NCBI GenBank assembly: GCA_030747075.1
Contig: JASLLL010000004.1
Coordinates: 62,001 to 126,000, forward strand
DNA length: 64,000 nt
Direction: 5' to 3'
DNA from: Gemmatimonadota bacterium
Lineage (GTDB): Bacteria > ARS69
In this document: piece by piece, positions 765-2,737 of the stretch
How positions within the stretch are numbered: position 1 is the stretch's first letter
How the letters are laid out: every line of letters starts with the position of its first letter
Made by a program: the position numbers and the translations under genes
Notes under the pieces: generated by a model
Seen by the model: only the letters and a program-made list of their open reading frames with translations
Told to the model about the DNA's origin: nothing
Databases searched by the model: none

Positions 765-1820
765 CTACTCCTCGACGAGGATTCCGTCGCCCTCCGTGAT
801 CTCGCCGATGACGGCCGCCGCCGGCGTCGAGGCAGCCTCCAGGCGAGCGAGGAGGTCGTCGGTGGTGCCGGGAGGTGCCACGAGCAGGAGACCGCCGGAG
901 GTCTGTGCGTCCGCAAGAACAAGCTGGTCGGCCTCTTCCACGCTGTCGGAGAAAGCGACACAGCCCGAGAGTGTGCGAAGCGTTTTCCGGGTCCCCCCGG
1001 GCGCGACTCCATCGGCGGCCAGATCCCGGGCTCCATCGAGAACCGGCACACTCCCGACAGAGACCCTTGCGCCACATCCGGAGGCTTCCAGCACCTCCGT
1101 CAAGTGCCCGAGAAGTCCGTATCCGGTGACATCGGTGGCGCAGACGATCCCGGTCTCCGTCAGCGCGCGCCCCGCCTCGCGGTTGAGTGCCGCCATGACG
1201 CGAATGGCCTCTCCGGCGCCGGCCTCGTCGATGCGCTCCTGCTTGAGCGCCGTCGTGATGATCCCGGTGCCGAGCGGCTTCGTGAGAATGAGCCGGTCCC
1301 CGGGCCGCGCTCCCTCCTTCCGCGCGATCTTCTCCGGATGCACCCGGCCGACGACCGCCAGCCCGTACTTGGGCTCCGGGTCATCCACCGTGTGCCCTCC
1401 GATGACCACCGTGCCCGCTTCGGCAGCTTTTGCCGACCCGCCTTCCAGGATGTCGCCAAGGACCGACAGCGGAAGCTCTTCCGACGCGGCGGGGAACGCA
1501 ACGATGTTCATCGCAGCGAAGGGTTCTCCCCCCATGGCGTACACATCGGAGAGCGCGTTGGCGGCGGCGATCTCGCCGAAAGTGTGCGGGTCGTCGACGA
1601 CGGGGGTGAAGAAGTCGAGCGTCAGCACAAGTGCCAGATCGTCGGAGATCCGGTAGACACCGGCGTCGTCCGGCGCCGCGGTTCCCACCAGAACGGCGGG
1701 GTCCGTGTGGGGCGTGAGACGGCGCAGAACCTGCGCGCGAAGATCGGCCTGACCGATCTTCGATGCTCAACCCGCGCAGTGGGAGTATGCGGTGAGGCGA
1801 ATCTTCCGGGAAGGAGTCAC
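765..1820 (-). CDS. selD: Selenide, water dikinase SelD, predicted selenoprotein (in-frame TGA = Sec18)
   Basis: SelD makes selenophosphate from selenide and ATP, the selenium donor for selenocysteine and selenouridine synthesis. The part after base 1688 is unmistakable SelD (LDFFTPVVDDPHTFGEIAAANALSD..., metal-binding Asp residues, GGHTVDDPEPKYGL, ATDVTGYGLLGHL). The SelD N-terminus is also present upstream in the same frame, but it contains a TGA at 1769-1767: LTAYSHCAGUASKIGQADL. Aligned with the family (YSHGAGCGCK in E. coli), the TGA falls exactly on catalytic Cys17, and the catalytic Lys is kept three residues later. GTG 1820 has GGAGGGA 8 nt upstream and overlaps the previous stop (GTGA). 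The resulting 351 residues match the family length; a start at 1688 would delete the active site. A perfect hairpin follows the TGA. Sec insertion is inferred, not shown. Confidence 0.93.
1738..1762 (-). promoter_or_regulatory. SECIS-like hairpin just after the selD UGA
   Basis: On the minus strand, four bases after the TGA there is a perfect 10-bp stem, CGAAGATCGG / CCGATCTTCG, closed by a five-base loop TCAGG. Bacterial SECIS elements are coding-region stem-loops immediately 3' of the UGA and bind SelB. The position and the G-containing loop fit that role. The loop does not start with G as the common bacterial model prefers, so the match is good but not textbook. Confidence 0.65.
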
Positions 1821-2737
1821 GGGCGATCTCCCTCCGGAAAGAGGTCGGTGGTGGTCTCGCACTCCACGGGAGCTTCGCTGCGCGGGATCTCACCGACGGG
1901 TGTGTCGAGGGCCGGCAGTGCGGGAATGGCGATGGAGCCTTCGCTCCCGCCGCGCACTTCGGCGAGCCTTCGCGAGAGGATGGCGTCGCCGCGCACGGGG
2001 CTCTCGAACACGAGATCCGCGGTCCCCGCAGGTGCGCGCCGGAAGTCCGTGGTGTCCCGGAAGCCGGGTCGGAGGTTCACATCCCAGGGGCGCATTCCCG
2101 AAGCCGTTCGGATTCCGAGGACGCGGACGGTGTCTTCGCCTCGATTGTGCAGGTGCAGTCCGTGGTCGTCCCAGGTGACGGACAGGTGCGCACCGGTGGT
2201 TGTTCCCGGGCAGAGCGGGAGGTTCGTCTCTGCGGGCAGGACCGCGTCCGCGAGCGCGAGAAACTCCGGGTCATACGAAATAAGAAGCCCGCTGGCGTAG
2301 AGTGTGCGGTCTCCCCGGGAAACCTCCACCGCGACGCGCCGCCCGAGATACCGGAAAAGAAGTGGCTCGGCAGTGAGCGGATCCTTGCGAAGAAGTTCGC
2401 GGACGGTGCGCCCCAGGCGAGCGCGCCACGACGGATGAGCTGCGCGCCAGACCTGCGCGTCTCGCCGTTCGCGGAAGTCGTCCGTCCAGAGAGTCTCGGG
2501 ACGAAGGATGGTACGAATGCGGTCGATTCCTGATCGGGTCAGGAGACGGCTTGACTCCACCGTATCGGACCCCACGGTGCGTGGTTCGTCGTAGACAACC
2601 TCCAGTCCGCCCGCCACGACATGAAGGACCCCGGTGATCCACTCGCCGCCGGTGAGCTGCATCTGAACGGAGTCAGCCTGAAAGAGACGAAGCGGGGAAG
2701 AGGCCCATTCGCCTCGCGGGAAATCCGGTCCCTTCAC
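1817..2737 (-). CDS. Unknown protein coupled to selD
   Basis: I do not recognise the family. The 306-residue product has no signal peptide or membrane segment. It reads as mostly beta-strand with short conserved-looking blocks (QMQLTGGEWITGVLHVVAGGL, GLLISYDPEFLALADAVLPAE, ADLVFESPVRGDAIL). GTG 2737 is chosen because a G-rich ribosome binding stretch lies 4 nt upstream and nothing else fits. Its stop codon overlaps the selD start by four bases (GTGA), and its last codons carry the selD ribosome binding site, so the two are translationally coupled. A role in selenium metabolism is possible by context only. Confidence 0.8.
   Translation of the reverse strand: MKGPDFPRGEWASSPLRLFQADSVQMQLTGGEWITGVLHVVAGGLEVVYDEPRTVGSDTVESSRLLTRSGIDRIRTILRPETLWTDDFRERRDAQVWRAAHPSWRARLGRTVRELLRKDPLTAEPLLFRYLGRRVAVEVSRGDRTLYASGLLISYDPEFLALADAVLPAETNLPLCPGTTTGAHLSVTWDDHGLHLHNRGEDTVRVLGIRTASGMRPWDVNLRPGFRDTTDFRRAPAGTADLVFESPVRGDAILSRRLAEVRGGSEGSIAIPALPALDTPVGEIPRSEAPVECETTTDLFPEGDRP

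Follow-up and report, generated by a model that had tools for sequence, protein, structure and literature searches.

The window, that is, the whole 64,000-nucleotide stretch of DNA analysed here, almost certainly carries a functional selD gene with selenocysteine (Sec) as the catalytic residue of its product, judging from the sequence (Table 1). The analysis establishes the gene itself, a UGA at the aligned position that relatives also carry, a hairpin downstream of it and a set of machinery genes in the genome. Sec-containing SelD has long been known and is common in bacteria, and the present case is real and ordinary in kind. It corrects a gene call, as a standard caller would shorten the enzyme and lose both catalytic residues, and it establishes the Sec trait for a little-studied lineage in which a formate dehydrogenase selenoprotein was not detected.

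Table 1. Positions of selD, its signals and the Sec machinery genes (window numbering, or contig and position elsewhere in the genome)
Feature	Position	Strand	Remarks
selD, 351-residue selenophosphate synthetase	765..1820	-	one UGA read through; translation, profile and structure match
GTG start codon	1818..1820	-	overlaps TGA stop of preceding gene
GGAGG	1831..1835	-	likely ribosome-binding site
Preceding ORF, 306 aa	1817..2737	-	same strand as selD; TGA end is the would-be true stop
In-frame TGA	1767..1769	-	proposed Sec codon, residue 18 (E. coli Cys17)
Codon of conserved catalytic Lys21	1758..1760	-	E. coli Lys20
Hairpin CGAAGAUCGGU-CAG-GCCGAUCUUCG	1738..1762	-	proposed bacterial SECIS, from 4 nt past the UGA
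selA	C13:52763-54109		535 bits
selB	C18:11597-13474		357 bits, C-terminal part present
tRNA-Sec	C8:22144-22237		UCA anticodon read by ARAGORN

Identity and start of the gene

Translation of the minus strand from 1820 to 765 with TGA read as U gave a product of 351 residues ending at TAG, and the only TGA inside the frame falls at residue 18. Without read-through, standard ORF calling yields a 307-aa frame from GTG 1688, and the active site is dropped, just as the original prediction had held; its coordinates were correct throughout. The upstream start that it had favoured is also borne out by the sequence: GGAGG (1835-1831) lies 10 nt upstream of the GTG, and the GTG (1820-1818) shares a GTGA overlap with the TGA stop of the preceding gene (1819-1817). 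Over residues 8-316, the product scored 370 bits with the TIGR00476 (selD) profile, whose cut-off is 125; it has the Pfam domains AIRS and AIRS_C, and the residues before the UGA are conserved, in agreement with the proposal that read-through restores the N-terminus of the family.

The best match to a solved structure was 3u0o_A, a 347-residue selenide, water dikinase chain that we take to be E. coli SelD. The two proteins are homologous from end to end (E 2.6e-68), with the difference that the catalytic residue is Cys in E. coli and, as proposed here, Sec in our protein. In the alignment (CAGUASKI vs GAGCGCKI), U18 pairs with Cys17 and K21 with Lys20, which places Sec at the E. coli Cys17 site with the Lys three residues later, as had been predicted. 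The SelD signature, Cys or Sec followed three residues on by Lys, is thus present, and the UGA stands where homologues have Cys or Sec, as in a selenoprotein gene. E. coli Cys19, the second active-site Cys, is replaced by Ser20 here, as it is in many homologues. Searches of the window found no Rfam match and no tRNA genes.

Conservation of the in-frame TGA

Within the same family, three further genera (3 of the 4 other genomes examined from the phylum) encode a SelD that is 63-64% identical and has one TGA at the same codon, and the protein sequence is conserved between genera on both sides of it. In the fourth, G004, no SelD match was found at 96% completeness, despite the presence of selA, selB and tRNA-Sec; the missing selD is probably a gap in the draft genome. 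Bacterial and archaeal genomes were scanned as well and yielded 50 SelD loci, three of which were the same relatives again. The aligned codon was TGA in 47 of 48 SelD genes and TGC in the other. This share is no population estimate, since two peptide patterns were used to collect the loci and one of the patterns specified Cys at the Sec site. The sole TGC gene belongs to a Peptococcaceae MAG (locus L042) and may represent a change from Sec to Cys.

A candidate SECIS after the UGA

Bacterial SECIS elements are stem-loops directly 3' of the UGA and within the coding sequence (PMC9312934), and they have been described for Sec-containing SelD genes (Mariotti et al. 2015, PMC4561486). The hairpin found here has a stem of 11 pairs. 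Among 200 dinucleotide shuffles, 198 fold less well than the 60-nt stretch. This control is less strict than synonymous codon shuffling, in which the protein is kept; under the latter, 5.8% of shuffles were as stable for this selD and 0.6%, 1.7% and 8.8% for its relatives, so that support for this hairpin taken alone is modest. All four family members have the hairpin in the same register after the UGA, and a joint fixed-register test of the four genes found 27 of 28 pairs vs 21.9 expected, with 0.045% of synonymous shuffles as good, although this test counts the four related genes as if they were independent and takes codon usage from one genome.

In its placement just after the UGA inside the coding sequence, the hairpin resembles a SECIS of the E. 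coli fdhF type, but its loop has no clear fit to the consensus. The published consensus for bacterial SECIS elements includes an early loop G, which was not clearly seen in the apical loops once their top G-C pairs were closed. In many deltaproteobacterial SelD homologues, the stem-loop lies about 5 nt further from the UGA than it does here. The hairpin is likely to be the SECIS of selD and is put forward as a candidate.

Selenocysteine machinery and the proposed reading

The original prediction implied a working UGA-Sec decoding system, and it listed absence of the machinery from the genome as an outcome that would count against it. That outcome was looked for and did not occur: selA, selB and tRNA-Sec (UCA) were all found in the gene's own assembly (G000; 2.67 Mb, a draft in 61 contigs rated 100% complete), and they point to a predicted capacity for Sec decoding. 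With the three together, this genome contains the set expected where bacterial selenoproteins are made. They lie on three different contigs, none of which is the selD contig, and matches to selB and tRNA-Sec were obtained in all five genomes of the GTDB phylum that were examined.

Under the proposed reading, a ribosome would start at GTG 1820 and then meet the UGA at 1769-1767, where the hairpin just downstream would recruit SelB with Sec-tRNA-Sec; we infer that SelB binds the hairpin and that Sec is inserted in place of termination. The finished SelD should be catalytically active and convert selenide and ATP to selenophosphate, which SelA would use to make more Sec-tRNA-Sec. As its product would feed Sec-tRNA-Sec synthesis, SelD would therefore depend on its own product.

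Alternative explanations

The TGA could be a sequencing or assembly error for the Cys codons TGC or TGT, since the genome is a draft in 61 contigs and one homologue, L042, does carry TGC at this site. However, TGA also occupies this codon in three separate genomes from other genera and in nearly all of the SelD genes aligned, and the Sec machinery is present, making an error extremely improbable. A pseudogene cut by the stop, or translation from 1688 that leaves the UGA region unread, would agree with the 307-aa frame of standard calling. Yet conservation between genera extends to the N-terminal side of the UGA, the motif typical of the family N-terminus is there, GTG 1820 has a likely ribosome-binding site before it, and a protein begun at 1688 would be without both catalytic residues; we regard this alternative as very unlikely. 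The original prediction had itself named relatives that reveal an error or a pseudogene as evidence that would tell against it, but the three relatives keep the TGA, so both a sequencing error and a decayed gene can be set aside.

It is similarly hard to credit that the UGA is decoded as an amino acid other than Sec, whether by a general change of the code or by SECIS-independent read-through, even though non-Sec read-through of a UGA in the same position has been proposed for insect SPS1 (PMC4561486). The genes of the Sec machinery are present, the adjacent gene appears to terminate at TGA, Trp regularly has the codon TGG (52 occurrences in the counted genes), and an AhpD-like protein of this genome has another TGA, in place of the second Cys in a C-x-x-C motif. 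A selD read with Sec at its UGA is thus the interpretation that we retain.

Relation to known selenoproteins and other candidates in the genome

Mariotti et al. (2015, PMC4561486) note that SPS/SelD often contains Sec of its own, and Zhang et al. (2006, PMC1794560) name FdhA and SelD as the selenoproteins found most widely in bacteria. The present gene resembles known Sec-containing bacterial SelD (TIGR00476) in its family, in a Sec codon at the Cys17 site, in the Lys, in the downstream hairpin and in the accompanying selA, selB and tRNA-Sec. It differs in its host lineage, a small GTDB phylum; at NCBI, the relatives carry the name Gemmatimonadota or simply bacterium. According to Zhang et al. 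(2006, PMC1794560), a SelD with Sec was present in every Sec-decoding bacterium that lacked FdhA. The genome fits this rule, as no formate dehydrogenase alpha subunit scored above the family cut-off in G000 (the best reached 34 bits and has no internal stop); unlike most such bacteria (PMC1794560), it is apparently without selenouridine synthase, which was found in none of the five phylum genomes examined.

A search with PF02627 identified a second gene with an in-frame TGA, AhpD/sestrin-like and outside the window (G000:C8 near 42246; L112:1621). Its motif, GCRY-U-TRAHAHDL, has the form C-x-x-U, which also occurs in selenoprotein families already listed, the AhpD-like and the CMD-like proteins (PMC9312934). 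Pfam assigned the protein to CMD, with sestrin below the cut-off. A homologue in G003 (L116/L118) is 58% identical and has TGA at the same codon. In both genes, GACCUC-CGGGnA-GAGGUC follows the TGA; in G000 the 42-nt stretch has a different minimum-energy fold. This protein is likely a second selenoprotein of the genome.

Members of the AhpC/TSA family in G000 and G003 have no internal stop. A codon-bias scan for genes with a read-through TGA, run over the window and roughly 130 kb of sequence surrounding the sel genes, returned five candidates, of which one was the AhpD-like gene and the others look like gene junctions or antisense frames. The scan missed SelD itself and, once retuned, gave no candidates, so that absence from it carries no meaning. 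It is possible, though on balance doubtful, that this lineage, with neither a selenoprotein formate dehydrogenase nor selenouridine synthase, keeps the machinery mainly for SelD itself and a small number of AhpD/sestrin-like proteins, perhaps a single one, which would make the system nearly self-serving.

Further AhpD-like frames with one internal TGA were seen in relatives. They include L120 in G001 and L113 (G003:C780), in which the motif is SRYU and the first Cys is absent. G004, the relative in which SelD was missing, also has such TGA-containing frames, L119 and L122.
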